Positions 434 through 39,677 of a stretch of DNA of 42,996 nucleotides are shown one piece after another. The DNA is taken from the IMG/VR virus record IMGVR_UViG_3300010157_000108, positions 1 to 42,996 of that record; one strand, 5' to 3'. Source of the DNA: a virus. A model generated the notes under the pieces. It was not told where the DNA came from, made no database searches, and worked only from the letters and a program-made list of their open reading frames with translations. Positions within the stretch are counted from its first letter, which is position 1; the number at the start of each line of letters is the position of its first letter. A program made the position numbers and the translations under genes.

Positions 434-2011
434 TCAGGCTAGGTAGTTGATAGAATAGTTAATTGTTCCGTTACCCAAGGTATTTTCAGCGGAGTATGTT
501 ATTGTTATTGTAGTGTTAACTTGAGTAACTGACAATGTAACTCCGGTGTCTGCGTTTTGCACAAAGTCATCAGACCAAACAGGATTACCGGTTCCGTTAA
601 CCGATGATATCAATATGGTTCCTGTGCGGTGTGTAGTGCCTCTTGCAATGGTATAGTTGACTGCAAACGCACTAGTTTGATCTGTAGATACCGTAGTAAC
701 TGTATTGGTATCATCGTTGGATATTTCAGTTTGAGATCCACTTTGTCTTATATAAGTTCCAGTGGCCAATACAATCTGTGAACCGTTTGTGGTAGCAACA
801 AAGTTGGTGGCTATGTCAGCATACACTCTAGGATAAGTTACAGCATCTGCGTCACTGCGAGAAAATAAATCGCTGATACTAATGTTATTACTGTTATTAA
901 GAACAATAATAGAAGTAAACGGAGTAGTGTCGGGTGCGTGATTTCCTACATTATAAAAAATATTATGTCCAGAGGCATTTGAATTAGAGTACTCACCAAA
1001 TATAATTCCTTCAGCATAAATGTTATCAAACAAATTACTAGTAATACGAATACCAGTTGGCGAAACCAGTGTAGGTGCTAAAGTTCCTAATAACACACCT
1101 TGATATAATGTATTAAATTCAGAATTTGAAATAGCAACACCACTGACTTCTTCATTGGTGTTGATTCCATAAACTGTTCCACTTAATACACATCCATCAA
1201 AAATTATGTTTTCGCATGAATAAGAAGCAGTTGTATTAAAATCTACTGCAATAGTAGCAGCAGTGTCTGTAGTTGGTGCAGATTGATTTGGGCCATAAAA
1301 TCCTACATTATTAAAACGACAATTAGTGGCTTGGCCAACTAAAAATACGCTGGCTGCAGTATCAACCGTTTGAAATCCAAGATTGGTGATAGTGATATTT
1401 TGTGGTGGTGTTGCTCCACCAGATCCAATGTTGACTCCTGTCTGTTGCAAGCTGTCAGCCGTTTGTGCCACATAGGCTGCTCCTGAATCTAATGAAATTA
1501 CAGAATTATCTAGGCCTTCACCATACAAGGTAGCATAGGGAGGAATGTTGATCGTGCCAGTTACTTTGTATACTCCGGCTGGGAAAAATAAACTACGACG
1601 TATTTGTGGGTTAACTTCTCTACAATACAATTGATACAACGCACGATTGATTGCTGCTGTGCAGTCTGTTGAGCCGTCACCTACTGCACCAAAATCTAAT
1701 ACTGAAGCAAACTGATCAAGCCAACTTTGTAAACTTAGATCAATTGGCGTACCCGAAGTAGGGCCAGTTTGCACTGTGTAACCAGCGGCCAGTCCTTTGT
1801 AAGTGTAGGTTGTAGAAAAATTCAAAATATCACTGAATTCCGTTAAGATTTCAGTGTTGCCAATGACTGGTGCACCATCTTCCAAGGTGCCATTGCCAAT
1901 CCAGAGTTGACGTGTGTCGGTACTCCAGCCAAACTCTGCGCCGGCTAGTTGTGGTAGATTTTCTGCTAAACCTTTACGGTTTGTAATTTGGGATATTTGA
2001 ACAATGGCCAA
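434..2011 (-). CDS. tailspike / tail fibre with pectin-lyase-like beta-helix
   Basis: A 525-residue adsorption protein. Residues 1-55 (AEFGWSTDTRQLWIGNGT) look like the short N-terminal domain of phage tropism or fibre proteins that anchors to the baseplate. Around residues 105-180 comes the pectate-lyase-3 signature: a FGAVGDGSTDCTAAINRAL turn, then FFPAGVYKVTGTI and YGEGLDNSVI. Residues 180-400 have the Asn-, Ile- and Gly-rich pattern of a right-handed parallel beta-helix. The C-terminus is a Thr-rich beta domain. Such proteins bind, and often cleave, surface polysaccharide. The start is a TTG at 2009-2011, supported by a strong AAGGAAG ribosome-binding site about seven bases upstream. A late promoter box lies at 2038-2043. 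Catalytic residues for polysaccharide cleavage cannot be assigned by eye. Confidence 0.85.
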   Translation of the reverse strand: MAIVQISQITNRKGLAENLPQLAGAEFGWSTDTRQLWIGNGTLEDGAPVIGNTEILTEFSDILNFSTTYTYKGLAAGYTVQTGPTSGTPIDLSLQSWLDQFASVLDFGAVGDGSTDCTAAINRALYQLYCREVNPQIRRSLFFPAGVYKVTGTINIPPYATLYGEGLDNSVISLDSGAAYVAQTADSLQQTGVNIGSGGATPPQNITITNLGFQTVDTAASVFLVGQATNCRFNNVGFYGPNQSAPTTDTAATIAVDFNTTASYSCENIIFDGCVLSGTVYGINTNEEVSGVAISNSEFNTLYQGVLLGTLAPTLVSPTGIRITSNLFDNIYAEGIIFGEYSNSNASGHNIFYNVGNHAPDTTPFTSIIVLNNSNNISISDLFSRSDADAVTYPRVYADIATNFVATTNGSQIVLATGTYIRQSGSQTEISNDDTNTVTTVSTDQTSAFAVNYTIARGTTHRTGTILISSVNGTGNPVWSDDFVQNADTGVTLSVTQVNTTITITYSAENTLGNGTINYSINYLA

Positions 2012-2048: not shown

Positions 2049-2777
2049 TTAGGCCAGTAGGTAATACTGCTCTAAGCGGCGCCACCATTGATCTGCCCAA
2101 TAGTCAAAACGTTCAGGTTTTAATACAAATTCTTGGTAAACAGGGCGGGCCTGTGGGTTACCCATATCGTCTACTGGGGGTTTAACACACATCAACACAA
2201 CACCTTTGCGTATATTAGTTCCGTAAACTTCATTGTGTGCCAGGGCATACGCTGTTAACTGTAGATAGTAATCCTCAATCCATTCTTCTCGTTTGGGTTT
2301 GTTTGTTTGCTTGTAATCTAAAATACTTTCCTCGTTTAAGTGCAACCCACAGCCATCTGTAGTACCGGCATACAAACTAGGAAAATACAAGGGAATTTCT
2401 ACACCCCAAATTTCGTTGACATTCTTAAGGCCGTCTTCAATTACAGTCTGTGCCATTGCGTGACTTGCCCACCCAAATGGGTTTGATCCACGTTCTTTTA
2501 ATTCACCTTGTTTGATATAGTCTTCAAGGTAGGTGTGCATACGTGTGCCACGGTTAGCCGCTTCAGTAGTAATCTTTTGTGCGTTTTCTACTCCAACACG
2601 TTTGCGCCATTCGTTGAGCGCCTGTTTTTTTTCTTCAGGTTTAGTCCGGTCAAGAACTGTTGTTACACTAGGCAATCGTTTTCCATCTGGTGTAGCATAA
2701 AGACGTCGACCATCTTCAGTAACACGACTCAGAGGTTTGTAATCAAATTTTGGGTTATACATTTTCATCGTCAACAT
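2049..2777 (-). CDS. PD-(D/E)XK phage exonuclease
   Basis: A 242-residue nuclease of the PD-(D/E)XK superfamily (RecB/Cas4-like exonuclease group of T4-like phages). RLPSVTTVL near residue 35, the helix ANRGTRMHTYLEDYI near 85-100, AGTTDGCG near 140 (catalytic Asp) and SILDYKQTN near 153 (D-x-K) form the usual active-site order. QLTAYA near 173 is the typical Q-x3-Y helix. Only two cysteines are present, so this is not an iron-sulfur exonuclease. It probably acts on host or phage DNA ends during nucleotide salvage or recombination. The first ATG overlaps the dCMP deaminase gene by 23 bases; the ATGs at 2768 and 2762 are possible alternatives. It is the last gene of the iscU-iscA-deaminase operon. 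Confidence 0.85.
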   Translation of the reverse strand: MLTMKMYNPKFDYKPLSRVTEDGRRLYATPDGKRLPSVTTVLDRTKPEEKKQALNEWRKRVGVENAQKITTEAANRGTRMHTYLEDYIKQGELKERGSNPFGWASHAMAQTVIEDGLKNVNEIWGVEIPLYFPSLYAGTTDGCGLHLNEESILDYKQTNKPKREEWIEDYYLQLTAYALAHNEVYGTNIRKGVVLMCVKPPVDDMGNPQARPVYQEFVLKPERFDYWADQWWRRLEQYYLLA

Positions 2778-3201
2778 GGTTTACTTCTATTCCTGATTTT
2801 TTAAGAAACTGGGTGCCAGTATCATCCCTGTATTTTTCTCTGTAAAAAACACGCTTGATACCACTTTGAAAAATTAGTTTGGCACAATCCAAGCAAGGAC
2901 TATGAGTAATAAACATATCACTGCCAAGGCCAGATTCATTCGACCTTGCCAACTTAGCGATTGCATTAGTTTCAGCATGAAGTACCTCCGGTTTGGTTGT
3001 TAAAAATTTTATGTCACCATTGGGCCATTTAATTTCATCTTCACAATTGTTGTCCCAATCTGCTGGCATGCCATTATAGCCGATACTGATAATTCTATCA
3101 TTTTTTACTACAATAGCGCCAACATGTAATCGACGAGCATGGCTAAGTTCAGCAGTGCGCTGAGCAATGTCCATAAAATATTTGATAAATTTACTTTTCA
3201 A
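2755..3201 (-). CDS. deoxycytidylate (dCMP) deaminase
   Basis: A 148-residue zinc enzyme that converts dCMP to dUMP, feeding thymidylate synthesis for phage DNA. The HAE motif (H75, E77) and PCLDC (C103, C106) provide the zinc ligands and the catalytic glutamate of the cytidine/deoxycytidylate deaminase fold. GYNGMPADWDNNCED (residues 41-55) is the substrate loop typical of phage and bacterial dCMP deaminases. The start is a TTG sharing four bases with the iscA stop codon. The next ATG (residue 10) would remove the first helix, KFIKYF, which belongs to the family. Third gene of the operon that starts with iscU. Confidence 0.93.
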   Translation of the reverse strand: MKSKFIKYFMDIAQRTAELSHARRLHVGAIVVKNDRIISIGYNGMPADWDNNCEDEIKWPNGDIKFLTTKPEVLHAETNAIAKLARSNESGLGSDMFITHSPCLDCAKLIFQSGIKRVFYREKYRDDTGTQFLKKSGIEVNHVDDENV

Positions 3202-3518
3202 ATCCTAAAACTTTCTCCACATCCACAACGGTCTCGTTCAAGAGGATTGTTAAATTCAAAGCCTTCGTTAAGACCCTGGCGCACATAGTCTACTTCGACT
3301 CCATTTAAGTATGCTGAACTCTTAGGATCAATCACTACAACAAAGCCATCTTGTTCAACTGCAATGTCTTCTGCATTAATGGTATCAACATATTCTAATA
3401 CATAAGCAAGCCCTGAGCAACCAGTGGTACGAACACCAAGTCGAATACCTACCCCTTGGCCACGTCGAGTCAAGTTAGATACAATTTTTTTAGAGGCGAC
3501 GTCAGTAACTGAAATCAT
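3198..3518 (-). CDS. iscA: A-type iron-sulfur carrier protein (IscA-like)
   Basis: A 106-residue protein, full length for IscA/ErpA/HesB carriers. It accepts [2Fe-2S] or [4Fe-4S] clusters from the IscU scaffold and hands them to apo-enzymes. The three ligand cysteines are present: C34 in RTTGCSGLAY, and C98 and C100 in the C-terminal CGCGESF. The motif GLNEGFEFNNP before the CGCG end is typical. The sequence looks much like bacterial IscA of Gammaproteobacteria and Betaproteobacteria, which points to acquisition from a host. It starts at an ATG sharing one base with the iscU stop (TGATG), so the two are co-translated. ErpA is an alternative name, but the iscU neighbour favours IscA. Confidence 0.93.
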   Translation of the reverse strand: MISVTDVASKKIVSNLTRRGQGVGIRLGVRTTGCSGLAYVLEYVDTINAEDIAVEQDGFVVVIDPKSSAYLNGVEVDYVRQGLNEGFEFNNPLERDRCGCGESFRI

Positions 3519-3895
3519 CAGTGTTTTTTACGGTAGTCTTCGATTGCGGCTTTTATAGCATCTTCTGCAAGTATGCTACAATGTATTTTAACCGGTGGTA
3601 AGGCAAGTTCTCCAGCAATATCCGAATTTTTAATCGTTCCTGCTTGGTCAAGCGTTTTTCCTTTAACCCACTCGGTGACAAGACTTGAGCTGGCGATTGC
3701 TGATCCGCACCCGTACGTTTTAAATTTGGCATCAGTTATTACTCCTTCAGTATTTACTTTGATTTGAAGTTTCATGACGTCGCCACATGCAGGAGCTCCA
3801 ACCATACCGGTTCCAATCGAGTCGTCACTTTTGTCAAACGACCCTACATTACGTGGATTTTCGTAGTGATCAATTACTTTTTCTGAATATGCCAT
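3518..3895 (-). CDS. iscU: iron-sulfur cluster scaffold protein IscU
   Basis: A 125-residue scaffold on which iron-sulfur clusters are built before transfer to IscA or target enzymes. All functional residues stand at the same positions as in E. coli IscU: C37 and D39 in APACGDV, C63 in TYGCGSA, H105 and C106 in KIHCSIL. LPPVK (residues 99-103) is the HscA chaperone-binding motif, so the protein should plug into the host cysteine desulfurase and HscA/HscB system; no iscS is seen in this window. Overall it resembles betaproteobacterial IscU. It is the first gene of an iscU-iscA-dCMP deaminase-exonuclease operon, with AGGAG six bases before the ATG. Confidence 0.96.
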   Translation of the reverse strand: MAYSEKVIDHYENPRNVGSFDKSDDSIGTGMVGAPACGDVMKLQIKVNTEGVITDAKFKTYGCGSAIASSSLVTEWVKGKTLDQAGTIKNSDIAGELALPPVKIHCSILAEDAIKAAIEDYRKKH

Positions 3896-3913: not shown

Positions 3914-3942
3914 ATTATAACATGTAACTGTTGTATTTACAA
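3914..3942 (-). promoter_or_regulatory. host-type promoter of the iscU operon, with an overlapping late box
   Basis: On the coding strand, TTGTAA (3937-3942), a 17-base spacer, and a perfect TATAAT (3914-3919). Transcription would start about 12 bases before the iscU ATG, leaving a short leader that holds AGGAG. A late-type TAAATA (3934-3939) overlaps the -35 box, so the operon may be read both early and late. Confidence 0.7.
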
Positions 3943-3956
3943 CCTTTTTGAACGGA

Positions 3957-4874
3957 TTATACGACTGGTTCTAGGGTGTATTGTTTTCGAGCTTGATTTT
4001 TGGTAACTGCAAATAATCTATTTTTATAGTCCAGACTTTCTGGGCAGAATTTACACATGGTCAATTGCTCATCAATCGTGTCCAAAAACTCTTGTCCGCG
4101 TTCTGCATACTCATAAGGAGATAATGGCCGGTAAGAATTTAATACGGCTCGATCCGCGTCCGAAATATCAAATCCGTGTTGTTGATCAAACTCTGGAAAT
4201 AATGCAGCTGGGCCACATTTATACAGTTTACCTTTGATCATATGATAATTTTTATGGCGCCTAAATCCACAACTGTTGTGTGCTACTTCGGGTCTACTAT
4301 TGTGTAGTGTAAATCGACCAGTAGCATCACGACCAATTGCACTGTCATAAAAATCATATTGTATCCACAAAGGAATAACAACTTTATTTTCATCTACCCA
4401 TGCTACGTCGGCACCATATTCGTTGCGAGGATCATTTTTTTCTATTTTTGTAATATTACCTTTAAGGAACTTGTAAACCTCTGTTTCAAACTCATCAATG
4501 GTGTTGGGATTGTGCCAGCTGATACCCATCCAGTTGCCATTGGCCTGTAGTGCTTCGTAAAGTCCTTTTACATTGTTTAGACGTGTGCCGTTTGACAAAA
4601 TCTGCACATTTCTCTTAAAGATACGATTGATTCCATATACCCAATCAAGTATATCTGGATTAAGCAGGGGTTCTCCACCTAGTATTACAATCCGATCAAC
4701 ATCTACATGTTCGGCCCATTTGGCATAGTCGGCTTCGTAGTCACTCCATCGTTGCCAACCAGCAAATGAGTAGTTGTTGAATCGATTACAACCTTCGCAG
4801 GTCAAATTACAAACGTTGGTTATATAGAACTCGAGTTTGGAGAATAAGTGTTTTTTCATAGTATAGTGCATCAT
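3957..4874 (-). CDS. radical SAM enzyme with C-terminal auxiliary cysteines (rSAM 1)
   Basis: A 305-residue radical S-adenosylmethionine protein. C22-x3-C26-x2-C29 (CNLTCEGC) binds the catalytic [4Fe-4S] cluster and ILGGEPLL (residues 64-71) is the SAM-binding GGEP motif. The C-terminal half has further cysteines (NSCGFR, YKCGPAA, and CKFC near residue 275) that could hold an auxiliary cluster, as in SPASM/twitch enzymes. Substrate unknown. Three in-frame ATGs occur at codons 1, 2 and 6. The first two lie inside a hairpin (4869-4891), so the third (MKKHLFSK) may be the start in practice. A late promoter box lies upstream at 4897-4902. It is encoded directly upstream of the iscU operon, which could supply its clusters. 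Confidence 0.88.
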   Translation of the reverse strand: MMHYTMKKHLFSKLEFYITNVCNLTCEGCNRFNNYSFAGWQRWSDYEADYAKWAEHVDVDRIVILGGEPLLNPDILDWVYGINRIFKRNVQILSNGTRLNNVKGLYEALQANGNWMGISWHNPNTIDEFETEVYKFLKGNITKIEKNDPRNEYGADVAWVDENKVVIPLWIQYDFYDSAIGRDATGRFTLHNSRPEVAHNSCGFRRHKNYHMIKGKLYKCGPAALFPEFDQQHGFDISDADRAVLNSYRPLSPYEYAERGQEFLDTIDEQLTMCKFCPESLDYKNRLFAVTKNQARKQYTLEPVV

Positions 4875-4914: not shown

Positions 4915-5250
4915 TTACTGGCGACGTTTTAATGCCGCTTTGGCATTGCTGTCTACCACGGCTCGAGCTTGGTCCACGCTCATACCGGTTTCGGCTTCGG
5001 TATTGCCTTTGAAACGAACCACACCCGAATTGGGTTCAAGCGGTTCTAATATATTGCTTAAAGGTTCTTTACTAATCAAATCGCCTAGGTTGGCCGAAGT
5101 AACATTAACACCTAAACTTTTTGCAGCGTCGATAAAAGCCTGTTGACTAATTTGTTTTGCGGCGGCTTCATCTTCACTCCGTCCAAGCAAAAACTGGCTT
5201 AATGCAGCCAGTCGTTGTGTGTTGGGATCTGCAACTTCTCGAATTAACAT
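4915..5250 (-). CDS. hypothetical protein, late structural region
   Basis: A 111-residue, mostly helical, charged protein of unknown function. It has the sequence RLAALSQFLLGRSEDEAAAKQ near residues 13-33 and a KRRQ C-terminus. The N-terminal MLIREVAD resembles the short leaders of neighbouring proteins (MKLQELA, MQIHEIT) but lacks a clear [LIV]-x-E cleavage site. The ATG overlaps the TAA of the previous gene by one base (TAATG), so it is translationally coupled to the 396-residue protein upstream. Probably a virion or assembly protein by position. Confidence 0.65.
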   Translation of the reverse strand: MLIREVADPNTQRLAALSQFLLGRSEDEAAAKQISQQAFIDAAKSLGVNVTSANLGDLISKEPLSNILEPLEPNSGVVRFKGNTEAETGMSVDQARAVVDSNAKAALKRRQ

Positions 5251-6440
5251 TATCTGCGTTCACGGCCTAAACCGGCTGCTTGTGCGGCAGCATCCAAGTC
5301 TGCACCAGCGGCATCTAAGTCTGCAACTTCTTCGCCCGGGGCAGGAAGTTCAGCACCCATGTCAGCACCCATGTCTGGAGCGGCACCTATTTCGGCACCA
5401 GGAACTTGTGGTGCTTGTCCAGTGATTACACCCAGTGCGGCTTCCAACTGTTGTTTAGCACCTTGCAAGTTTCCTAATAGGCCACTCAATGCAGCACTGG
5501 CATCAGCATTGTATTGTGTAGCTTGATCGACCCCGACTTCATTTCTAATTTGATCCAACAGGGCTGGCAAATCTTTAAACTGCATAGCAGACACTTGCTC
5601 ACTCATCTTTTGAACTTGGTCTACCATGTCTTGGCTTGCCAACACAACTTGAGCTTGTTGAATTTCACTGGCTTCACGCAAACGACGAGCACGACTGCCT
5701 TCTGCTACGCCCTTTTTTCTAGTTACAGGATTACTTGCATCACCGTAGCCACCTTCTTTTCCCCAATCGTAAGATTGATTGTTAGGAGTTGCACCTTTAG
5801 CATGTGCTTTCTTTATATTGCCCAAAGCCTTTTGATTGAACTTGGCATATTTTTCACCTTCAGAGCCGTAATTTACTTTAGGGTCAGTCCAATGACTATC
5901 TGCGTAACCATCTCTTTCAGCAGGACGTCCTGCTAATCCTTTAGCAACACCACCTGCCCATGTTCCTTGACCTGCTCTCTTACCGGCATAACTAGTCAAT
6001 GTTGCCGGACTTAGTTCATCAAGTTGAGCTTCGGCCATGGCCATCATGGTTGGATCATTCATTTGCTTTTGCAATTGAGCAATCTCGCCTTGCTTGGCTT
6101 TGATAGCATCTTGAATTTGCTTTTTCTTTTGCTGGATCTGTGCGGCTTGCATTCCAGCTTGTGCCTGAGGATTTGCAGCAGGAGCGGCGCCTGGAGTAGT
6201 TGCGGCCGCGGCCAGAGCCTGTTCCATCATGACCAATTTCAAGTATGATGGATTTCGCTCACTGTAGTGAAATTCTGGAGTGCGACGATGTTCAGCAATT
6301 AAGCCACGCACACGCTTGAGCATGTTTCGTGCTTGGCCTTTTGATACTGTGTTGAAATCAACACGGTTGCCAAAATAGCTTTCAAAAACCTTAGCGGCTT
6401 GTTGTATTGGGTTGGCTACGGCCAGTTCTTGCAGTTTCAT
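5250..6440 (-). CDS. hypothetical late protein, coiled coil and low complexity
   Basis: A 396-residue protein of unknown function. Residues 1-75 form a charged helical domain (FESYFGNRVDFNTVSKGQ, then RRTPEFHYSERNPS). Residues 75-135 are Ala/Gln-rich with a predicted coiled coil (QQKKKQIQDAIKAKQGE). A middle part contains LDELSPATLTSYAGKRA, a short motif that recurs, from memory, in precursor-like structural proteins of many phages. Residues 255-345 are a second helical region. The end is an Ala/Asp/Gly-rich acidic tail. Low-complexity linkers suggest a scaffold or processed internal protein. A late promoter box (6464-6469) and AGAGGA precede the ATG. The first 50 bases overlap the end of the next upstream gene. 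Confidence 0.7.
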   Translation of the reverse strand: MKLQELAVANPIQQAAKVFESYFGNRVDFNTVSKGQARNMLKRVRGLIAEHRRTPEFHYSERNPSYLKLVMMEQALAAAATTPGAAPAANPQAQAGMQAAQIQQKKKQIQDAIKAKQGEIAQLQKQMNDPTMMAMAEAQLDELSPATLTSYAGKRAGQGTWAGGVAKGLAGRPAERDGYADSHWTDPKVNYGSEGEKYAKFNQKALGNIKKAHAKGATPNNQSYDWGKEGGYGDASNPVTRKKGVAEGSRARRLREASEIQQAQVVLASQDMVDQVQKMSEQVSAMQFKDLPALLDQIRNEVGVDQATQYNADASAALSGLLGNLQGAKQQLEAALGVITGQAPQVPGAEIGAAPDMGADMGAELPAPGEEVADLDAAGADLDAAAQAAGLGRERR

Positions 6441-12222: not shown

Positions 12223-13227
12223 TTATCCACATGACTCATCGCAAATTACTAATCGCCCTTGTTCATAATTATCAATTTCCCAGGCGTTTTTGACAGATTT
12301 AAACCACTCAATACATTCTTCTAATGGGTATTCTAACGCATTATTTTTTGCAATCAATGGAATTAATTGAGCATTAGCGGCTTCATGAAACCGATGAGCG
12401 CCATATGTTTTTGGATAAAACCCAAGATAACAACAAGGACTTACATCTCCGTTAGCAGCAATGTAGATACTCTTTAGTCTTTTAGTCTCACAATTTAAAG
12501 ATTTTGCAGGAATACGCCCAGGAAGAATATCTTCTAGTAGAATTTTATATGCTTTTTTCTCGTGGTATAATATTTCAAAATCTTTCTCTCCGGTATAATT
12601 GCCTATTACATGTGTGAGTTCACCGTGATTATTAAAAACCGGGCCGGTGTCACGCCCACTATCAGGTGATAGTAAAAATTGTGTAAAGCCAAGCTCTTTA
12701 CTAAGTGCGCGGCACTGCTCAATTTGGTGACGATTATGATCAAATGGTATCATTTTCCAAATGGCATCACCACCGGCGGCTATAAATGTTTGTGCATTAC
12801 GTATAACTGTGGCCCATACTGTATTTTGCCTATACAGGTGATGGGTATCTTCTAATCCGTCTAAACAAAAATAAACTGTGACTCTGCTTTTTGCCAGCCT
12901 GGTCCAGAACGTTTGATCTCTTGCTCCGCCATTGGTGCTGATAGTAATTTTTAAATTGGGATTAATACTAATAAAATATTCAACAATATCAGGTCCTTCG
13001 GGATTCATTACAATATCCCCAAAATTACCATTGATTCGAATACTGGTCAACTGTGTTAAAAAATCTTCAGTAAAGATTTGTTTAGCGTGTGTTAATGTTA
13101 AGTTAGTTTCTGGGTATCCAGCGTTGAACGAATATCCCCAAAACGTCCTAGGACACAACGGGCAACTAGCATTACATAAACTAGAAATTTCAAGATGAAC
13201 ATCTTGTATATCTTGATAGGCTATCAT
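12223..13227 (-). CDS. radical SAM enzyme with SPASM-like tail (rSAM 2)
   Basis: A 334-residue radical SAM protein. C18-x3-C22-x2-C25 (CNASCPLC, then PRT) binds the catalytic cluster. The usual GGEP is replaced by INGNFGD near residues 65-71, a variant known in some SPASM-type enzymes. The C-terminal third has an auxiliary set: C in LNCETKR, SPCCYLG, EECIEW, and the extreme C-terminal CDESC. SPASM enzymes commonly modify peptides or proteins, or act in cofactor and sugar chemistry; the substrate here is unknown. It is the last gene of the primase-helicase operon, overlapping the helicase stop by four bases, so it would be made with the replication proteins. Confidence 0.88.
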   Translation of the reverse strand: MIAYQDIQDVHLEISSLCNASCPLCPRTFWGYSFNAGYPETNLTLTHAKQIFTEDFLTQLTSIRINGNFGDIVMNPEGPDIVEYFISINPNLKITISTNGGARDQTFWTRLAKSRVTVYFCLDGLEDTHHLYRQNTVWATVIRNAQTFIAAGGDAIWKMIPFDHNRHQIEQCRALSKELGFTQFLLSPDSGRDTGPVFNNHGELTHVIGNYTGEKDFEILYHEKKAYKILLEDILPGRIPAKSLNCETKRLKSIYIAANGDVSPCCYLGFYPKTYGAHRFHEAANAQLIPLIAKNNALEYPLEECIEWFKSVKNAWEIDNYEQGRLVICDESCG

Positions 13228-24060: not shown

Positions 24061-24312
24061 TTAGTTGGCCATTAAAGTGATTTGAACGTCAATGCCCTCG
24101 TGGGTGATACCAACCCCCACTGGGCGGGCTTCACCAGTAAAACTACTGTGACGGCGATCGTAAGCCAGTTTTTGGATTGCAAGGCGCAGGGCGGCACCAT
24201 GTGTGACTGTGGCTGTTTTTGTAAAGATATCGTTTACTGTACCATACATGCCAAACCCGTCAATGACGAAACGAATTCGTGTGCTGTTACTAAATCCTGC
24301 TACGTGGCGCAT
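24061..24312 (-). CDS. small early protein, unknown function
   Basis: An 83-residue protein, MRHVAGFSNSTRIRFVIDGF at the start, then VNDIFTKTATVTHGAALRLA, and GITHEGIDVQITLMAN at the end. It looks like a compact alpha/beta protein. The ATG at 24310-24312 is preferred to the longer frame because it follows AAGGAGC by eight bases and a TATAAT promoter at 24343-24348; the extra upstream codons would read through that promoter. Second module of an array of small early genes that each carry a near-identical promoter. Function unknown; many such phage early proteins act on host processes. Confidence 0.75.
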   Translation of the reverse strand: MRHVAGFSNSTRIRFVIDGFGMYGTVNDIFTKTATVTHGAALRLAIQKLAYDRRHSSFTGEARPVGVGITHEGIDVQITLMAN

Positions 24313-24315
24313 TTT

Positions 24316-24363
24316 GGGCTCCTTTTTAGTTTCTATACAAGTATTATAGCAAATGGACCATTT
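24316..24363 (-). repeat. 48-bp direct repeat, copy 1 (promoter and leader)
   Basis: A 48-base stretch identical to 24618-24665. It contains most of the promoter spacer, the TATAAT box, the leader and the AAGGAGCCC ribosome-binding site of the 83-residue gene. Confidence 0.95.
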
Positions 24364-24371
24364 CTGGTCAA
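24343..24371 (-). promoter_or_regulatory. early promoter B (TTGACC family)
   Basis: -35 TTGACC (hexamer 24366-24371), 17-base spacer with the perfect dyad AAATGG-N-CCATTT, TATAAT (24343-24348). The stop codon TGA of the upstream 81-residue gene lies inside the TTGACC. Confidence 0.85.
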
Positions 24372-24613
24372 GCATTTTCGCCAAATCCAACACAATCTTC
24401 AAAAATACTTTCTAACAGGCAGTCTAGGTCGCCTTCGCCACTGTTGTTTTCTTCCCACACTTGCTTCAAGTCTGCAGCCAGCATTTTAGCAAATGCCTTG
24501 CTGTTAAAGATCTTTTTAAACTTGGCATCGTTTGTAATGTCAAGTCCAGTCGCTTCAATAATGCTTTTAAACTCTTTTTCTGAAAACTCTACTGTAACTG
24601 CAATCTTACTCAT
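24368..24613 (-). CDS. small acidic early protein, unknown function
   Basis: An 81-residue protein: MSKIAVTVEFSEKEFKSIIE, a helical middle (NSKAFAKMLAADLKQVWEEN) and an acidic end (GEGDLDCLLESIFEDCVGFG). Strongly negative towards the C-terminus, as in many phage inhibitors that mimic DNA or bind host enzymes, though nothing specific is recognisable. AAGGAGCCC precedes the ATG by five bases and a TTGACC-17-TATAAT promoter lies directly upstream. Its stop codon is part of the next promoter's -35 box. Confidence 0.75.
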   Translation of the reverse strand: MSKIAVTVEFSEKEFKSIIEATGLDITNDAKFKKIFNSKAFAKMLAADLKQVWEENNSGEGDLDCLLESIFEDCVGFGENA

Positions 24614-24617
24614 TTCT

Positions 24618-24665
24618 GGGCTCCTTTTTAGTTTCTATACAAGTATTATAGCAAATGGACCATTT
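24618..24665 (-). repeat. 48-bp direct repeat, copy 2 (promoter and leader)
   Basis: Identical to 24316-24363 over 48 bases, 302 bases away. The two copies flank the 81-residue gene, so recombination between them would delete that gene with its own promoter and leave one intact module. Confidence 0.95.
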
Positions 24666-26188: not shown

Positions 26189-26193
26189 GCAAA

Positions 26194-26201: not shown

Positions 26202-26206
26202 GCCCG

Positions 26207-27664: not shown

Positions 27665-28723
27665 TTATTCCTCCGTTGCGGTTTCTTCAGTGGTTACTGT
27701 TTCTTTCTGATTTTTAAAATCTGTCATTACTTTGTCCAAGCAACCATCTTCGTTGGATTCCCAAGCCTTACGGAACTGTTTAATTATCTCACCTTCGCTG
27801 GTAACAAACATCAAACGATTGCCATCTTTCTTAAGTATACCTTTTTTCTCTGCTAGATCAGTCAATCCACTATAAGGGTTCATGCCTGTTTCATACGGAA
27901 TCTTAACCTGCATACCTTCAAATGGTTTAGCATAACGAGTTTTCATTACCTTACATCCAGCACGGATACCCATTACTTCAGAGATTTTGTTACCTTCTTC
28001 ATCTTCTTTGAGTTTCATTTTCTTCATAGCAACAACAATACTTGATGCATAGATAAAGCCTTGGCCACCTGAAATCTTATCATCTGGGTCAAACATATCC
28101 TGGCTTGCGTAGGTGTGATTCGTACAAACCATTCCAACATTGAAGCCACCAAACATGTTGACTGAATTACGAACAAGACTTGTTAGTGCTTTGGGCTTAC
28201 GACCCATATCACCTTTCATGTCACCGGCTTCAAATTGATTCACATCAGTTGGAGTCAACAACATACCCAATGAGTCGATAACCCATAATACCTTCATGCG
28301 CTCACCATCTGGTAGAGCTTTGTAATCAATCATGAATGTTGAAATAGCCTTGGCAACGTCATCAATCATACTCATGTTTAATTTAAGTAACTTGTCTGCA
28401 CCGGTATCTACACCAAGCGCATGTAGCCATGTTTCGTCTAGTGCGTTTTCTGTATCAACCAAGATGACAAAGATACCTTGCTCTTGTGCGTTCTTAACAA
28501 TGTTGCCTGAACAAATATAGCTTTTTCCTGCACCAGACTCACCGGCAAATACTGTAATCTTGCCCAGTGGAATACCTCGATTAAAGTCTCCACTGATAAG
28601 ATAGTTCAAGGCAAAATTGCCTGTTGAGATCCAATCAGTTGGATCATTGAAACCAATACTTAGGCCTTCAATGCTTTTGGTGATGTCCTTGCGGAACTTG
28701 CTTATATCAAATGGTTTTGCCAT
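27665..28723 (-). CDS. uvsX: UvsX recombinase (RecA-like)
   Basis: A 352-residue strand-exchange ATPase. Walker A GESGAGKS (61-68), Walker B VLWVIDSLGMLL, and the RecA-type loops with MVCTNHTYASQDMFDPD and KISGGQGFIYASS. The C-terminal domain (GILKKDGNRLMFVTSEGEII) and an acidic Thr/Glu-rich tail fit T4-type UvsX. It performs recombination-dependent replication and repair with gp32, UvsY and UvsW. AAGGAAAG precedes the ATG, and only two bases separate it from radical SAM gene 3. Confidence 0.96.
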   Translation of the reverse strand: MAKPFDISKFRKDITKSIEGLSIGFNDPTDWISTGNFALNYLISGDFNRGIPLGKITVFAGESGAGKSYICSGNIVKNAQEQGIFVILVDTENALDETWLHALGVDTGADKLLKLNMSMIDDVAKAISTFMIDYKALPDGERMKVLWVIDSLGMLLTPTDVNQFEAGDMKGDMGRKPKALTSLVRNSVNMFGGFNVGMVCTNHTYASQDMFDPDDKISGGQGFIYASSIVVAMKKMKLKEDEEGNKISEVMGIRAGCKVMKTRYAKPFEGMQVKIPYETGMNPYSGLTDLAEKKGILKKDGNRLMFVTSEGEIIKQFRKAWESNEDGCLDKVMTDFKNQKETVTTEETATEE

Positions 28724-28725
28724 GA

Positions 28726-29880
28726 TTACTTTCCTTCTTTAAGTTTGTATAATTCTGTAAAAATTTTACTGCTGTCTACTCCACGCCGTTGATCCATTGT
28801 TGCCAATTGTTCAAATGAATTTGTTAAATTCTTCTCAATTGGTTGCTCAATGTAATGCAACATATTCCGATAACTATCTTCAAGTAGGTACCCTGGATTT
28901 TCGTTGATCTTTGATTGTAATTTTAACTTTAACGAGTTTAACACATTTTCTGGTAAATGTCTAATATTTAGGTAATCAGGAGTGAGTAACGCACCAATGA
29001 CAAAACTATTATTATGGAATCCTAGACCTTTAAGGTAGTCTACATATCCAAATACCGAGTCATAATTTAAAAGAAACCATAGCATGTTGAAACTTATCTT
29101 ATGGTCAAGTTTTCTAATTGTGTTTAGATTGTCTAAAAAATCCTGCCACTTACCGCCGAATCGTATGTATTCAAATTCATCTTCTATGGTTTCTGCACTC
29201 ACTGTCCAATGAACATTTTTGAATTGGCATACTGCATCAAACACTCCTGTATCAACCTTGCTAAGATTTGTGTTTATCCTAAGATTAACGTCTGGGTTTA
29301 ATTCTCGAAGTAGTTTTAAATTTTCCTTCATCAACAAGGGTTCGCCACCGGCTAGGTATACATGTTTGAGATTCTTGGCGTGTTGATAAATGTAGTCTCT
29401 GAAATCCTGTTGCTGTTGTTCGGTTGGTTGTGATATTTTTTTACCCAATTCGTCTGCCCAACGACTACTAAACACAGGGCCACAATATACACAAGCAAGA
29501 TTACACAAATTGGTCCACCGAACATCAATGGTTTGTAGATTAAAATTATTGGGTCGATAAGTATCCAATGGGGTTTGTTTGAATTCTCGTATGTAGAAAA
29601 TTCTATCACTGATAATATCAAAACCTTCTTTACCATGTTCTAAATCGTAACAAGTATGACAGCCAGCAGCCGGCTGGTTATTGATTATATTAGTTTGTTT
29701 GGTAACATTGACAGGTCCTAACAGTATTTCTTCAATGGTGTTGTCTTTGATATTGCCTAGACCACCGGTTGTAAAATCACTGCGAATACAATTTTTTACT
29801 TTGCCATCAACGTTATACATCAACCCAGTCCATGGCATTGGGCAAAAATTCTTGTTGGTTAATATATCTTTGGGGGTCAT
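28726..29880 (-). CDS. twitch/SPASM-type radical SAM enzyme (rSAM 3)
   Basis: A 384-residue radical SAM protein with an N-terminal auxiliary-cluster module: FCPMPWTGL (C13), VKNC (C31), and C74-x2-C77 (AAGCHTC). The radical SAM core follows with C126-x3-C130-x2-C133 (CNLACVYC) and LAGGEPLLMKEN. The N-terminal twitch-like layout is shared with rSAM 4 and rSAM 5, so the three are one subfamily. Such enzymes often act on peptides, but substrate and product are unknown. It lies between an SDR gene (four-base overlap) and uvsX, so it is expressed with the recombination genes. Confidence 0.88.
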   Translation of the reverse strand: MTPKDILTNKNFCPMPWTGLMYNVDGKVKNCIRSDFTTGGLGNIKDNTIEEILLGPVNVTKQTNIINNQPAAGCHTCYDLEHGKEGFDIISDRIFYIREFKQTPLDTYRPNNFNLQTIDVRWTNLCNLACVYCGPVFSSRWADELGKKISQPTEQQQQDFRDYIYQHAKNLKHVYLAGGEPLLMKENLKLLRELNPDVNLRINTNLSKVDTGVFDAVCQFKNVHWTVSAETIEDEFEYIRFGGKWQDFLDNLNTIRKLDHKISFNMLWFLLNYDSVFGYVDYLKGLGFHNNSFVIGALLTPDYLNIRHLPENVLNSLKLKLQSKINENPGYLLEDSYRNMLHYIEQPIEKNLTNSFEQLATMDQRRGVDSSKIFTELYKLKEGK

Positions 29881-30416
29881 ACCGGTCCTAAAGAAATATC
29901 TGGAATTCTAAGATTGTTTTTTGCGGCCATATCTAATAGACCCAATAAGGTTTTAGCCCAGTTATCGACATCGGCGGCAGGTGGCACTGTTTTATCCAAG
30001 TTTGTGGCAATGTTACCAGGACGAACTACTACGATCTTTACTTTGAGTCGACGATGTCGTATTTGACGCACAGCTTCTTCTAATGTAACTTTTTGCAAAC
30101 GATAATGATCCATGTCTAGTCCAGTCAACGACGACACAGGTTCTTGAGTCATCATTGTGCTGATCACAATAATCTGTTTGCCGGTGCCCGACCAGCGTTG
30201 TGCCATTTCAAACAACAACTCGGTCTGTGCATATCCGGCTTGTGCGTTGTTAACAAAAACATCACACGGTTCAATTTGATCACAAATCTTAACGGTGTTG
30301 CGAATATTGTTGCCGTCACGTTGACTAAGACCTACAATTTCATAACCCATGAGTTGATATTCTTCAGCAAGAGCTTGACCTATGCCGGCGGTGTGACCAG
30401 TGATTGCTATTTTCAT
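29877..30416 (-). CDS. short-chain dehydrogenase/reductase
   Basis: A 179-residue oxidoreductase, short for the family (usually about 250). TGHTAGIG (6-13) is the NAD(P)-binding Gly motif, VNNAQ (55-59) the NNAG-like block, VISTMM the Ser strand, and Y105-RLQK109 the YxxxK catalytic pair. VVRPGNIATNL is the conserved PG motif. The C-terminal substrate loop is shortened. It could oxidise or reduce a sugar or the product of the flanking radical SAM enzymes, which overlap it by four bases on both sides. The basic RQIRHRRLKVK stretch after the active site is unusual. Confidence 0.85.
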   Translation of the reverse strand: MKIAITGHTAGIGQALAEEYQLMGYEIVGLSQRDGNNIRNTVKICDQIEPCDVFVNNAQAGYAQTELLFEMAQRWSGTGKQIIVISTMMTQEPVSSLTGLDMDHYRLQKVTLEEAVRQIRHRRLKVKIVVVRPGNIATNLDKTVPPAADVDNWAKTLLGLLDMAAKNNLRIPDISLGPV

Positions 30417-31288
30417 ACTATGCCTCTTAGTTGTTTTTGTTTTGCTATATATGCATCTCTAGCAGGAATGTCAGTATTATCAACACTCAACTCAACGGGC
30501 GTTTTTAAGTAAGCATAACTGTGATCAATGCTGTGCTCTAAGGCAAATTTTTGAATGTTGGGCAAGTCATCTACATTCAACACACTGACTGTTGTCCACA
30601 AATTCAATGTGACTGGCATTGTTTTATAGGTCATTAAATTACGATAAAAATCTTGCCAAGGTATAGGCCAGCGCACAAAGTCATGCACTGTGCCGATGCC
30701 GTCACAACTTACTGTGACTGTAACTTCGATGCCACTGCGGGCTATATCAACTAGTTCAGTTAATACTGTGCTACAATTTGTATTTAATCTGAGCGTTTTT
30801 AAATTAGGTGGCAAATTTTTCAACAGTCGTTTATAGTTTTTACTATAACTGGGCTCGCCGCCATTGATATCTAAATGCATAATTCGTTCTTGTGGCAATT
30901 GCCAGAATTGATCCGTATTATTGATAATTGGAAATACAGGTCCGGCTAAGCTGCCGATTCTACTGCTGAGATTTTGATTGCATGTTTGGCAAGCGGCATT
31001 GCACAGATTGTCCAACACACCACCTACTTGTAAATAATCTTTCTGTTCAGTTTGATGGTCTAACTCTGTTGCATACGCTCGTATGCTGTCAGGTTCAGTT
31101 TCTTCACAACGTATACATTCGTCAGGCCATTGTCCACTACTCATCAAATGTTTGGTATTGACCAGCCACTCACTGGATTCCATTGCTTCAAGCGTGGCAA
31201 ATTCTGGTGCGTTGACCATGTGTCCACAGCGACTAACTGTGCCGTTGCTGTTGAAACGAACAAAATGATCTAGTCTAGGACAATACAT
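30413..31288 (-). CDS. twitch/SPASM-type radical SAM enzyme (rSAM 4)
   Basis: A 291-residue radical SAM protein of the same layout as rSAM 3 and rSAM 5 but shorter at the C-terminus. N-terminal cysteines C3, C21, C58 and C61 (MYCPRL, SRCGHM, ECIRC) could form the auxiliary site, and C96-x3-C100-x2-C103 (CNAACQTC) is the catalytic cluster motif. LDINGGEPSYSKN is the SAM motif. The substrate is unknown. It overlaps the sulfotransferase-like gene by 14 bases and the SDR gene by four, so the module is tightly coupled. Confidence 0.87.
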   Translation of the reverse strand: MYCPRLDHFVRFNSNGTVSRCGHMVNAPEFATLEAMESSEWLVNTKHLMSSGQWPDECIRCEETEPDSIRAYATELDHQTEQKDYLQVGGVLDNLCNAACQTCNQNLSSRIGSLAGPVFPIINNTDQFWQLPQERIMHLDINGGEPSYSKNYKRLLKNLPPNLKTLRLNTNCSTVLTELVDIARSGIEVTVTVSCDGIGTVHDFVRWPIPWQDFYRNLMTYKTMPVTLNLWTTVSVLNVDDLPNIQKFALEHSIDHSYAYLKTPVELSVDNTDIPARDAYIAKQKQLRGIV

Positions 31289-36133: not shown

Positions 36134-37696
36134 GCGCCTTACGCTGATGAATGGCATCGGCGGGATTATGTTATCTCCGTGGTCTCGCAGCTGAGTATCA
36201 ATGCTGTTATCGTAGGTTTGTAGCAATTGTAGCATACGCACCGTCAGCACTGTGCTCATAACCAAGTCATCAGTTTCTCCTATTTTGGCTGCATAGCCTG
36301 CACCAGAAGCCACAAAGGTTTTGAGTTCGCTGACCAGGCTTGAACTGCGTACCTTCATACGTCCTGATTCGATTAGTGTTTTTAACTTGTTACAAGCGGC
36401 CAGCTTGGGTTTGTTTGTGGTGTTGAATCCTTTGCGGTATCTCTTATTTCCGCCATTGTGCGGGTCACTTAGAAAATAGCCCTGTATGTTTTCCTCGCCA
36501 TATTCGTCAATGCTGATCAATGCAGCTTCGCCAATGGTATTGTTTTCTATGCTGTAGTATATTTTTTGTGGATCCTTAACTGTTTCATTGATGTGAGCAC
36601 AAATAGCTGCTAAAATGCGAACCTGCTCAGGTATTGGTGTTCTATTGTGACGCCACTCAGCCACTTGTTCTGTAGTTTCTGCTTCAAATATTTGTATAGC
36701 AGCAGCATCACCACCAGTGCCCAAACTAGGGTCAAGCCCAATTACATAGGTACGGCCTGACTTGGGGCGCTGATACCAACGAACCTGCCCAGTCTTATAC
36801 AAGGGTTCATGCCCTTGCAAATCTAATAATTTAGTTGGTGCTATAAGTGTTTCATCGTTGATAATAAATTCGCACCCCATTTCACGGCGGAAACGATCAT
36901 CGCCTAACTGTGCTCGCTGTTCGCTAGCCCACTTTTCATCACGGTCTGGGTGTTCGTTCCAATAACTGCGATAACTCTTAAATCCATTGATACCAACGTC
37001 AGTGGGGTTACCAAATTCATCTTCGCACTTGAGAGCACCTTTCCACAACAGGGCAAACTGATCTTCGTCACTGTTTGGAGTGCTTGTAATAATTGCCTTA
37101 CCACCAGTGGCCAGTGTAGGGCTAATAGAAGTCCAGAACTCTTTGGCAATGCCAGGGCGAACAAACGCGAACTCGTCACAGTATAAGAGTGATATACTCA
37201 TACCACGACCGGTATTTTCTGTTGTGGTGGTTGAAACTATGCGTGATCCGTTTTCAAAGTCCAAGTTACCTTTGTTGTAACTAGTAACTCCGGCACGGAT
37301 ATGATCTGGACACAGCTCGTAGGCATAGCGAATACGTTGCATGATCTCTTGTGAGCCAGTGTATTTGTGTGCGGCAATAAGAATAGTTGAATCTGGACGG
37401 AACATGGCCACCCATAACAAATAGCCAGCGGCACTGGTACTCTTACCGGTTTGTCGCGGCATCATGCTGATGCTGAAGCGATAGTTGTGATAGGTATCTA
37501 TCAGTCGCTTTTGATAGTCAAACGGATGATACAACATCTTGCCTTTGGTAGGATGCTGTATATGAAAAAAGTTATCAAGAAAATATTGCGGACCTGTTAC
37601 AGGATCAGCACATTTTACAAACTCCTCTAACTGTTGATCAGTAAAGGCTGTTTTCTTGTATGGTGTTTTAACTAAAGTAGATTCGGTTTGGCTCAT
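36131..37696 (-). CDS. 17: terminase large subunit (gp17 type)
   Basis: A 521-residue DNA-packaging motor and headful nuclease. The ATPase part has Walker A MPRQTGKS (79-86), Walker B LLYCDEFAF (170-178) and ITSTPN (coupling motif). The RNase H-like nuclease has GLDPSLGTGGD (320-330) with D322, then SIENN and GETDDLVMS with further acidic metal ligands. The length is slightly shorter than T4 gp17 (610). It shares four bases (ATGA) with the stop of rSAM 5 upstream. No small terminase is seen in this window. Confidence 0.96.
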   Translation of the reverse strand: MSQTESTLVKTPYKKTAFTDQQLEEFVKCADPVTGPQYFLDNFFHIQHPTKGKMLYHPFDYQKRLIDTYHNYRFSISMMPRQTGKSTSAAGYLLWVAMFRPDSTILIAAHKYTGSQEIMQRIRYAYELCPDHIRAGVTSYNKGNLDFENGSRIVSTTTTENTGRGMSISLLYCDEFAFVRPGIAKEFWTSISPTLATGGKAIITSTPNSDEDQFALLWKGALKCEDEFGNPTDVGINGFKSYRSYWNEHPDRDEKWASEQRAQLGDDRFRREMGCEFIINDETLIAPTKLLDLQGHEPLYKTGQVRWYQRPKSGRTYVIGLDPSLGTGGDAAAIQIFEAETTEQVAEWRHNRTPIPEQVRILAAICAHINETVKDPQKIYYSIENNTIGEAALISIDEYGEENIQGYFLSDPHNGGNKRYRKGFNTTNKPKLAACNKLKTLIESGRMKVRSSSLVSELKTFVASGAGYAAKIGETDDLVMSTVLTVRMLQLLQTYDNSIDTQLRDHGDNIIPPMPFISVRR

Positions 37697-38814
37697 AATA
37701 AAGTTGCTAGTTCAGGCCACAGTTGTTCAAAGCGACCTGCAGCACCAGCATGATATTTACTTTCAATTTCGGCAATGTGATTTATAAATTCTGGTAACAT
37801 ATTGTTGTTGGCCAGCTGATGTCGAGCTTCGGTTTCTTGTAGGAAGTTGCGTTGACCGTGATCCAAATCGGGTCTACTTAATACTGTTCGTAATTCTTTT
37901 AAGGCCAACTGCCTAAACTCAGGTCCCAGTTGTAGCGGATCTAAACAAGCAGGATGATATAGGCTTTGCCAATGCACGGGTATTGTTTGATCATGTGCCC
38001 AAGAAATCAATTCAGATAGTCTAGTGGCATTGTAAATGTTGTAAAGCGGATGTATGCCTAATCTATGCCCTGAGCAGGCCTGTATTATTTTGATATTTTG
38101 TTCAATTTGACTCCATGTACCACCATACCTGACATATTCAAATCTATCACCCGTATTGTCAATGCTTATGTTCCACCCAACCTGTTGTCGTTGTGCTAAC
38201 TTAGCAAATATCCGATTGCTTTCTAAGTCTACACCAAGATTGGTTATAACGTCAACTTGACAATCCAAAGGAATTGCATCTAGTAGTCGTTCATTTTCTT
38301 TGAGCAACAACGGCTCACCACCAATTAGAGCCACTTTCTTAATGTGTGCTTGATGTTGTTCGAGATAGTTGCATACTTGGTCAGAATAGGGTCTGGTGCC
38401 GGACTGAACTGACAATTGTTTTAGACTGGCCCATTGACTACTACTGTGTTCGTTGCAGTAGTTGCAACTGAAATTGCAAGTGGTGTTCCAGCGTATGTCA
38501 ATCAGCACTGGATGGTGTTCTGTATCTGAGGCTTGGCCAGCATCAAAGCCGGGATTTATTCTGTTGTGCCAGTCACGTTCACTACGACCATAGCGTTCGG
38601 CCTGCACACAATTGTGACAATACTGCTCATGTGGGCGTCCCTCACGCAGGGTTTGTCTTACTTCTTGCAGTGCAGAGCCGTGTAGAATCTCCTCAATAGT
38701 TTGGCTGTTTAAGTTGCCCAACATGTTAGGATCACCTGCACAACAGGTTTTGACACTGCCTTGTGGATTGATGTGCAGACCCCTCCACGGAGCTGCACAC
38801 AAGAAATTGCTCAT
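37693..38814 (-). CDS. twitch/SPASM-type radical SAM enzyme (rSAM 5)
   Basis: A 373-residue radical SAM protein, the same subfamily as rSAM 3 and 4. The N-terminal module is LCAAPWRGLHINPQG with C6, C24-C25 (KTCC) and C66-x2-C69 (QYCHNC). The catalytic motif is C113-x3-C117-x2-C120 (CNFSCNYC), followed by LIGGEPLLLKEN. The ATG at 38814 is chosen because the protein then begins MSNFLCAAPW, matching rSAM 3, and because a CATAAT box lies exactly six bases upstream; a longer frame from 38880 would overlap the nuclease gene. It precedes the terminase gene with an ATGA overlap. Substrate unknown. Confidence 0.87.
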   Translation of the reverse strand: MSNFLCAAPWRGLHINPQGSVKTCCAGDPNMLGNLNSQTIEEILHGSALQEVRQTLREGRPHEQYCHNCVQAERYGRSERDWHNRINPGFDAGQASDTEHHPVLIDIRWNTTCNFSCNYCNEHSSSQWASLKQLSVQSGTRPYSDQVCNYLEQHQAHIKKVALIGGEPLLLKENERLLDAIPLDCQVDVITNLGVDLESNRIFAKLAQRQQVGWNISIDNTGDRFEYVRYGGTWSQIEQNIKIIQACSGHRLGIHPLYNIYNATRLSELISWAHDQTIPVHWQSLYHPACLDPLQLGPEFRQLALKELRTVLSRPDLDHGQRNFLQETEARHQLANNNMLPEFINHIAEIESKYHAGAAGRFEQLWPELATLL

Positions 38815-38820
38815 ACTGTA

Positions 38821-38849
38821 ATTATGAGCAGATTGACTGCTGGAACAAA
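38821..38849 (-). promoter_or_regulatory. weak host-type promoter of rSAM 5, predicted leaderless
   Basis: -10 CATAAT (38821-38826), six bases (TACAGT), ATG. The -35 is poor: TTTGTT at 17 or TTGTTC at 16 bases. It is included because the spacing equals the other leaderless starts. Confidence 0.4.
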
Positions 38850-38852
38850 CTT

Positions 38853-39677
38853 TTAATCGATGTCGGCGTTGGCGCCACACAACTTGCGTTTTGCATTAGT
38901 CAATGCGCCAAAGTCCACTGGCCATTCTTGTCCAGGTTGTAGCTCTACTGCGCCTTTAGGAAATGCATAATTAACACCTGCTTGTTGTTCAATCTGTGCC
39001 ACTGGTACGCGGAATTTAGTCAAGTCATTGCCTAGATTAGGATATGGTGCTACGTGTGGAAACAACCAACCTGCATATTGTCCTGTGTTTTCGTCTATGA
39101 CAATCTTGTAGAAAGCATGTGGAACAACTACGCCAGCACCAATCTTTTTGTCTTGTGCTGTGTATAATCCACCACTGACTATGTTGAATGTGTGTCCAGT
39201 TTGAGCTGCCCAACCACGCACTGATGTTTCTAACAGTTTCCAAATACCACGATTTAAACTGCCGGCCTGTGGGCTCATGTTGGTCATCAAGAAACTTTCA
39301 TACTCAACCTGTTGATCCCAACTTTGGTCTCCGTCTGGAGCCATGTGTCCTTTGTCGTAGCCTGTGCCTGCGTAGTCACCTGGTACTGCACCACCCTGGA
39401 TGCTTTGGTCAGCGGCAAATGCATTTGACCGTGCTACGCAACCCAATGCGTGTCCAGGGGTCAAGGTCCACATAACAAAACGTGGAACTTTGGCCTGAGA
39501 ATCATAGGCTGATAGATAAGCTTCACGGCAAATTGGTTGCACAGCACCTTGCACTTGTGGAACACCGTATGGTGTATGCACTTGACATTGTGCTAGGGTG
39601 CCAGGGGCACGTTGTGTCCAGGCCAATGCTGATGATGCAATTAGCGCAATTATTAAACTTGTTAAGATTTTTTTCAT
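38853..39677 (-). CDS. exported DNA/RNA non-specific endonuclease (Serratia/NucA family)
   Basis: A 274-residue nuclease of the beta-beta-alpha metal type. Residues 1-19 are a classical signal peptide (MKKILTSLIIALIASSALA) with an AxA-like site after A19, so the enzyme goes to the periplasm or outside. The active site is D108-KGH111 (GYDKGHMAPDGDQ; H111 general base) and the metal-binding block TNMSPQAGSLNRGIW. Cysteines at 31, 50, 80 and near the C-terminus could form disulfides, fitting export. It may degrade superinfecting phage DNA, host or environmental DNA for nucleotides, or help release. It follows the two internal-protein-like genes with only 20 bases between. Confidence 0.92.
   Translation of the reverse strand: MKKILTSLIIALIASSALAWTQRAPGTLAQCQVHTPYGVPQVQGAVQPICREAYLSAYDSQAKVPRFVMWTLTPGHALGCVARSNAFAADQSIQGGAVPGDYAGTGYDKGHMAPDGDQSWDQQVEYESFLMTNMSPQAGSLNRGIWKLLETSVRGWAAQTGHTFNIVSGGLYTAQDKKIGAGVVVPHAFYKIVIDENTGQYAGWLFPHVAPYPNLGNDLTKFRVPVAQIEQQAGVNYAFPKGAVELQPGQEWPVDFGALTNAKRKLCGANADID

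Follow-up and report, generated by a model that had tools for sequence, protein, structure and literature searches.

The closest described counterparts of the locus studied here are the iscRSUA-hscBA-fdx operon of bacteria and two sets of phage genomes. Nishimura et al. (2017, PMC5332604) described marine viral genomes that are T4-like and carry genes for IscU and/or A-type carriers together with radical SAM (rSAM) genes; one such genome, with an A-type carrier, has 12 rSAM genes, and it was proposed there that the viral assembly proteins serve virally encoded as well as host proteins. A link between phage-borne iron-sulfur (Fe-S) cluster assembly and phage rSAM enzymes, which the first-pass annotation of this DNA had offered as a new idea, was therefore already in print. 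As far as the accessible part of that paper extends, it describes neither a linkage with ErpA or superoxide dismutase (SOD), nor a co-occurrence test, nor an intein in IscU. Phages of the HMO-2011 type, another marine group, likewise have iscU and erpA on their genomes, although the available portion of the report describes no linkage with SOD or IscA (PMC9038755). In the open-licence PMC literature we found no account of an A-type carrier together with MoaA, none of a phage linkage between ErpA and SOD, and none of an IscU intein.

With the bacterial operon the phage locus has in common the order of iscU followed by iscA and the same residues, but phage loci differ from it in being without IscR, HscB and Fdx. 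Limnohabitans queries in tblastn at E 1e-8 matched none of these three in 101 phage loci (IscU being present in 99), and on this ground bacterial contamination was rejected as an explanation of the IscU loci assigned to phages. IscS gave one weak match in the same 101 loci, in L077. HscA-like matches were present in three loci (L024, L012 and L073), of which only that in L024 was classified; the gene at L024:13596-15479, within the iscU locus, is a phage-borne DnaK scoring 993 bits. IscU matches labelled 'Acinetobacter phage MD-2021a' (CAKLQF020000009.1, L583) were set aside because that sequence, in which the isc operon is complete, reads as host chromosome.

The window, by which we mean the whole stretch of 42,996 bases that was analysed, is the IMG/VR virus record IMGVR_UViG_3300010157_000108, and its features are collected in Table 1. 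It is covered over its entire length at 99.98% identity by a viral record of 148,970 bp, here called G001, which represents the same virus and may itself be partial. The nearest named relatives of the window's large terminase are Pseudomonas phage PA5oct and its kin (53.6%), and environmental relatives of the window virus reach 346,856 bp. We regard this virus as a T4-like phage, in a clade whose records run up to about 347 kb; to our knowledge the HMO-2011-type phages are not T4-like.

Table 1. Features of the window and, in the last line, of G001 (window positions unless stated otherwise)
Feature	Position	Strand	Remarks
Fibre-like gene	434-2011		Judged by eye
PD-(D/E)XK exonuclease	2049..2777	-	Downstream of iscA; conserved neighbour in 18 of 18 relatives
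dCMP deaminase	2755..3201	-	phrog_174; 4-bp overlap with iscA; one of 18 relatives has it here
iscA	3198..3518	-	A-type carrier, 106 aa; one base (3518) common to iscU
iscU	3518..3895	-	Fe-S scaffold, 125 aa; TIGR01999, catalytic residues and dN/dS
Promoter candidate, sigma-70-like	3914..3942	-	TTGTAA-17-TATAAT, TG before the -10, upstream of iscU; consensus match only
rSAM protein	3957..4874	-	305 aa; ends 61 bp ahead of iscU; not constant at the locus
Virion structural family match	5250-6440		Neighbour of iscU/iscA
rSAM protein, possible client	12223..13227	-	CxxxCxxC; PF04055 22.6 against a cut-off of 29.5
UvsX-like recombinase	27665..28723	-	phrog_97; control locus
rSAM protein, possible client	28726..29880	-	N-terminal twitch/SPASM-like domain; adjoins uvsX
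rSAM-like protein, possible client	30413..31288	-	NF033640 126.1 bits against a cut-off of 170; no Pfam match
rSAM protein, possible client	37693..38880	-	N-terminal twitch/SPASM-like domain
Overlapping SOD and erpA genes	L563:489-1399 = G001 about 110,988-111,898		Outside the window, same virus

Comparisons were made in a cohort of 50 large viral records, 37 of them seeded by terminase or UvsX and 13 by IscU, with L080 excluded. IscU is present in 37 records (a tally that takes in G008, where the gene is split by an intein, and G035, where the frame is broken), an A-type carrier in 38, and rSAM in 47, the last being PF04055 matches at E 0.001, some of which lie below the family cut-off and which give an incomplete count (eight of the nine in G001). 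The records carry no CheckV values and their completeness is uncertain, so that absences weigh little. Near-identical records were kept in the tallies of rSAM density and SOD, where G021, G022 and G039 have matches in common, as have G041, G042, G043 and G049. For the locus counts, 80 iscU loci less 16 near-duplicates gave 64 distinct loci, 80 uvsX loci were reduced by seven to 73 distinct loci for density, and 44 ErpA loci were reduced by 11, and then by one IscA-like locus among the remaining 33, to 32 distinct ErpA-like loci.

In a family scan the IscU of the window scores 224.9 bits against TIGR01999, above the curated cut-off of 192.4, and it retains C37, D39, C63, H105, C106 and the LPPVK motif at 99-103. 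The best model for IscA is TIGR02011, at 144.4 bits slightly below the equivalog cut-off of 150.6, while the rival A-type models SufA and ErpA give 111 and 70.9 bits, both well below the TIGR02011 score; the protein also exceeds the cut-off of TIGR00049, and the cysteines C34, C98 and C100 are all in place. The two genes are thus intact at every residue for which this had been claimed. Ten tested IscU positions are invariant across 83 phage and 78 bacterial sequences, and dN/dS for iscU lies between 0.015 and 0.154 in the 13 printed comparisons, which cover plus-strand relatives with unsaturated synonymous differences. Strong purifying selection acts on phage IscU. For the further claim, that the pair has its own promoter, the sequence offers a candidate. 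A sigma-70-like site with an extended -10 and ten of twelve consensus matches lies upstream of iscU (the scan gave 19 sites against 8.5 in shuffles), but because only 61 bp separate iscU from the end of a preceding rSAM gene of the same orientation, a private promoter is no more than plausible.

Bacterial IscU sequences nearest to that of the phage come from Rhodoferax and other Betaproteobacteria and are 89% identical. In a tree of the kind that had been suggested, phage and bacterial IscU are largely apart (three label changes against 39.5 in shuffles); built from 161 sequences thinned to 126 over 125 columns and with 2 of 123 inner branches starred, this tree is poorly resolved and serves for the coarse split only. 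The observation that the window has no cysteine desulfurase extends to the whole of G001, possibly a partial record, in whose 148,970 bp there is no PF00266 match. As had been proposed, the intact and selected IscU/IscA pair would then need sulfur from the host.

Within the cohort PF00266 was matched in four of the 50 records, strongly in G026 and G046. The first of these (L558, 208,932 bp) has an IscS-family cysteine desulfurase at 653.5 bits, over the cut-off of 643.2, and no IscU match. The second (245,550 bp) has genes for SufC, a SufD-like and a SufS-like protein directly before iscU-iscA (L077:7308-11000), SufC being over its cut-off and the other two below theirs; this locus adjoins a gene of 2854 aa, by eye a tail fibre, and ClpP-like, QueD-like and UvdE-like genes, also recognised by eye, are found nearby. 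Judging from its gene content, a desulfurase may be phage-encoded in this relative at least. The one match for phage sufC/sufS in the accessible open-licence PMC text concerned bacterial MAGs.

The statement that five rSAM genes accompany iscU and iscA in the window proved correct: all five proteins contain CxxxCxxC, and three (3957, 28726 and 37693) pass the PF04055 cut-off. A PDB look-up for the protein at 3957 gave no informative match, and viperin identity was rejected for the rSAM proteins, the weak matches of PADLOC viperin models being read as the shared rSAM core. Two of the rSAM genes have near them, at 25427-26953 of the window, a methyltransferase and a fusion of a cytidylyltransferase with a mannose-6-phosphate-isomerase-like cupin, which may point to sugar chemistry. 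A repeat some 66 bp long occurs twice in the window (24310-24378 and 24610-24681) and again in G001 near 80.5, 102.8, 103.1, 104.7 and 105.0 kb.

Within the clade, the specific link between IscU and phage rSAM genes was not supported. Of the terminase- or UvsX-seeded records, those that reach 80 kb have a median density of 3.82 rSAM matches per 100 kb where IscU is present (21 records) and 4.89 where it is not (eight records; p = 0.30), and at 140 kb or more the median is 4.09 (n = 13) against 6.22 (n = 5; p = 0.010), which runs against the hypothesis. All nine records of at least 290 kb have 12-19 PF04055 matches, the eight with IscU (12-19 each) as well as the IscU-less G028 (328 kb, 15 matches), and G011 (152 kb) has IscU and no rSAM match. 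By position, rSAM genes exceed chance around iscU only at the shortest distance tested. An rSAM gene lies within 200 bp of iscU in 6 of 64 distinct loci, against 2.6 by random placement (P = 0.029), a mild enrichment, but within 2 kb in 8 against 6.3 (P = 0.24) and within 5 kb in 11 against 9.9. Around uvsX rSAM density is 10.03 per 100 kb (72 in 718 kb, 73 loci), fourfold the 2.30 found around iscU (19 in 827 kb, 64 loci), and 46 of the 73 uvsX loci have at least one rSAM gene. Gene order is constant in 18 IscU relatives, namely p4915-[rSAM]-iscU-iscA-exonuclease-fibre-like gene, with NrdA next in 16; the rSAM slot holds a homolog of the 3957 gene in four, other rSAM genes in two (one relative being common to both) and none in 13. 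In our view, the presence of five rSAM genes in the window thus owes more to the abundance of such genes in the clade, and to the part of the genome around uvsX, than to any association with iscU.

Between clades the proposed co-occurrence does appear. Ten named phages without IscU, hand-picked, have 0, 4, 4, 0, 1, 6, 2, 1, 0 and 1 rSAM genes, or 19 in 3.02 Mb, far fewer than in the clade of the window, the six belonging to Vibrio phage K566, while C48C1, among the 11 hand-picked named records, combines IscU with one rSAM gene. The coincidence of IscU with many rSAM genes therefore exists at this level, which favours the first-pass proposal, but it is confounded by descent, one clade amounting to one event.

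What IscU tracks better than rSAM is the A-type carrier, a distal ErpA and SOD. Every one of the 37 records with IscU has an A-type carrier, against one of 13 without, and in 53 of the 64 distinct loci iscU and an IscA-like carrier gene share their orientation and are no more than 2 kb apart (no more than 60 bp in 35). In G001 a second A-type carrier is ErpA (NF010147, 156.4 bits, cut-off 117); its gene is 72 kb away from iscU/iscA, and the record also has an Fe/Mn SOD (PF02777, 76.7 bits). Two A-type carriers over cut-off are found in 19 of the 50 records, and the distal one is far closer to ErpA than to IscA in 18 of 18 compared, that is, in all but G043. SOD is present in 20 of the 37 records with IscU (it was not seen in the other 17) and in none of the 13 without. 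In all 20 no more than 1.2 kb separates it from erpA (14) or iscU (6), against 0.67 expected, a tally in which the distal carrier of G043 is assumed to be ErpA without effect, since SOD adjoins iscU there, and in which independent cases number about 15 once near-identical records are allowed for (by eye, from identical scores). At the level of loci, 11 of the 64 distinct ones around iscU include SOD and none of the 80 around uvsX does; in an ErpA-seeded sample that includes G001 it is present in 21 of 32 distinct ErpA-like loci, 17 of these within 20 bp. Among the eight ErpA-seeded large records besides G001, IscU is found in one and was not seen in seven. Of the nine records of at least 290 kb, eight possess IscU, a nearby A-type carrier, ErpA and SOD.

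Analysis of sister phages revealed a further feature of the scaffold gene. The IscU of G008 is split between Gly62 and Cys63 by a predicted intein of 340 aa (L658:2001-3020), whereas the window IscU is without one. A search with this sequence gave 40 loci (L657-L696), and all 36 full-length copies (27 distinct sequences from 23 distinct loci) sit exactly at the catalytic Cys63; the four partial copies agree on the side that is visible. C1, the block-B TxxH, the terminal HN and the Cys at +1, which are intein motifs, show no variation among the 36 full-length copies, and 32 of the 40 loci pass a stricter automatic test. An invariant PD...ExxxK stretch within the intein is, by eye, a possible endonuclease. 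The match to the Pfam Hint model is 22.8 bits (E 8e-5), below the cut-off of 29.7; there was no NCBIfam match and no match in INPHARED or PLSDB, and the best intein-like PDB match had an E of 0.76. The mycobacterial SufB intein is likewise inside an Fe-S assembly protein, and its splicing is reported, in the accessible part of the source, to be sensitive to oxidative stress (PMC6034842). The phage element differs in lying in IscU at the catalytic cysteine, in being confined to sister phages and in that its splicing is predicted.

These results bear on what the genes are for. On balance it seems somewhat probable that the window phage carries a general Fe-S cluster set, not an rSAM-specific one, which would build, deliver and protect clusters and be fed by the host. 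From the presence of the genes, their intact residues, the selection on iscU, the recurrent pairing of iscU and iscA and the repeated placing of SOD beside erpA or iscU, we infer a path in which host cysteine desulfurase would give sulfur to phage IscU, host HscA/HscB would discharge it, IscA and the phage ErpA would carry [4Fe-4S] clusters to apo-proteins, and the SOD encoded beside erpA would limit cluster damage. Because the phage encodes the IscU, IscA and ErpA steps and G001 has no desulfurase, electrons and chaperones, like sulfur, would come from the host. Genetics in E. coli support the sequence IscU to IscA to ErpA under air, according to the available part of the study (Vinella 2009, PMC2682760). 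Host enzymes whose clusters are labile are probably among the clients, and so, probably, are phage enzymes, rSAM proteins included.

A role in protecting labile clusters would fit the position of SOD next to either erpA or iscU. According to the accessible text of Rohaun and Imlay (2022, PMC9576991), sampled rSAM clusters are largely superoxide-resistant and dehydratase clusters are not, and the linkage would on that account point more to superoxide-labile enzymes than to rSAM proteins. If phage rSAM enzymes behave like the sampled ones, which were few and included none from phages, host dehydratases could be among the main clients. SOD could also serve some end that has nothing to do with clusters, and its place beside erpA may be synteny passed down in a single clade. 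It is a tentative and on the whole doubtful extension that during infection the IscU to IscA to ErpA line with SOD of this clade of aquatic T4-like phages maintains clusters in phage enzymes and in superoxide-labile dehydratases of the host, and that the Cys63 intein of sister phages makes the scaffold splicing-dependent, possibly as a redox switch.

The alternative that phage IscU and IscA form a dedicated line, chiefly loading [4Fe-4S] clusters into phage rSAM enzymes, would account for the nine rSAM genes in the 148,970 bp of G001, for their abundance in the largest records compared with the hand-picked IscU-less phages, and for the rSAM gene that lies 36-61 bp upstream of iscU in some loci, and a broader form of it is the one in print (Nishimura et al. 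2017, PMC5332604, accessible part). We nevertheless think it unlikely, given that density within the clade is no higher with IscU, that G028 and K566 have rSAM genes without IscU while G011 and C48C1 have IscU with none or one, and that rSAM genes crowd near uvsX and are not enriched within 2 or 5 kb of iscU. Another alternative is support for deoxynucleotide synthesis, in which the set would keep iron cofactor supply and redox right for a phage class Ia ribonucleotide reductase. Of the 64 distinct iscU loci, 33 include NrdA and 32 NrdB, and neither occurs in any of the 80 uvsX loci; within 2 kb of iscU there are 6 NrdA and 11 NrdB, on either side of it, and in L008 and L043 iscU lies between the two. 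In G001 the class 1a NrdA (819.8 bits, cut-off 813) starts just past window position 1, and dCMP deaminase belongs to the gene run in the window. The small subunit of the class Ia enzyme needs a di-iron centre, but we know of no Fe-S cluster in this reductase; a Fer2 ferredoxin was rejected as client, none being over cut-off in the 50 records, the deaminase is at the locus in only one of 18 relatives, and NrdA order is one conserved block, so that proximity may be inherited. We hold this explanation to be quite improbable.

A takeover of host metabolism, with phage IscU and IscA binding host IscS or iron and so diverting or throttling host cluster synthesis, has in its favour that a scaffold without its own desulfurase in G001 must meet that of the host. 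A decoy, however, would not need C37, D39, C63, H105, C106 and LPPVK, which are invariant in 83 phage sequences, and neither the linkage of ErpA and SOD nor the SufC, SufD-like and SufS-like genes added by one relative (G046) agrees with it, making it very unlikely in our estimation. Use in the virion, as a source of iron or clusters for metal-bearing tail proteins, is suggested by the match of the gene at 5250-6440 to a virion structural family and by the fibre-like gene seen by eye at 434-2011; nucleotide genes are in the same neighbourhood, and we give this idea hardly any credence.

If they form a general Fe-S cluster set, the genes described here have consequences for how the metabolism of these phages is viewed. 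Phage papers, in the accessible open-licence PMC literature, name Fe-S genes one at a time or in loose groups. The joint occurrence of linked IscU-IscA and SOD-ErpA in eight of nine relatives of at least 290 kb suggests that cluster metabolism is maintained as a system. The intein in IscU is an independent sign of the value of the gene to phages, and the scaffold may possibly be redox-controlled. With the linkage in view, oxidant-labile enzymes of the host become the likelier clients and phage rSAM enzymes the less likely ones.
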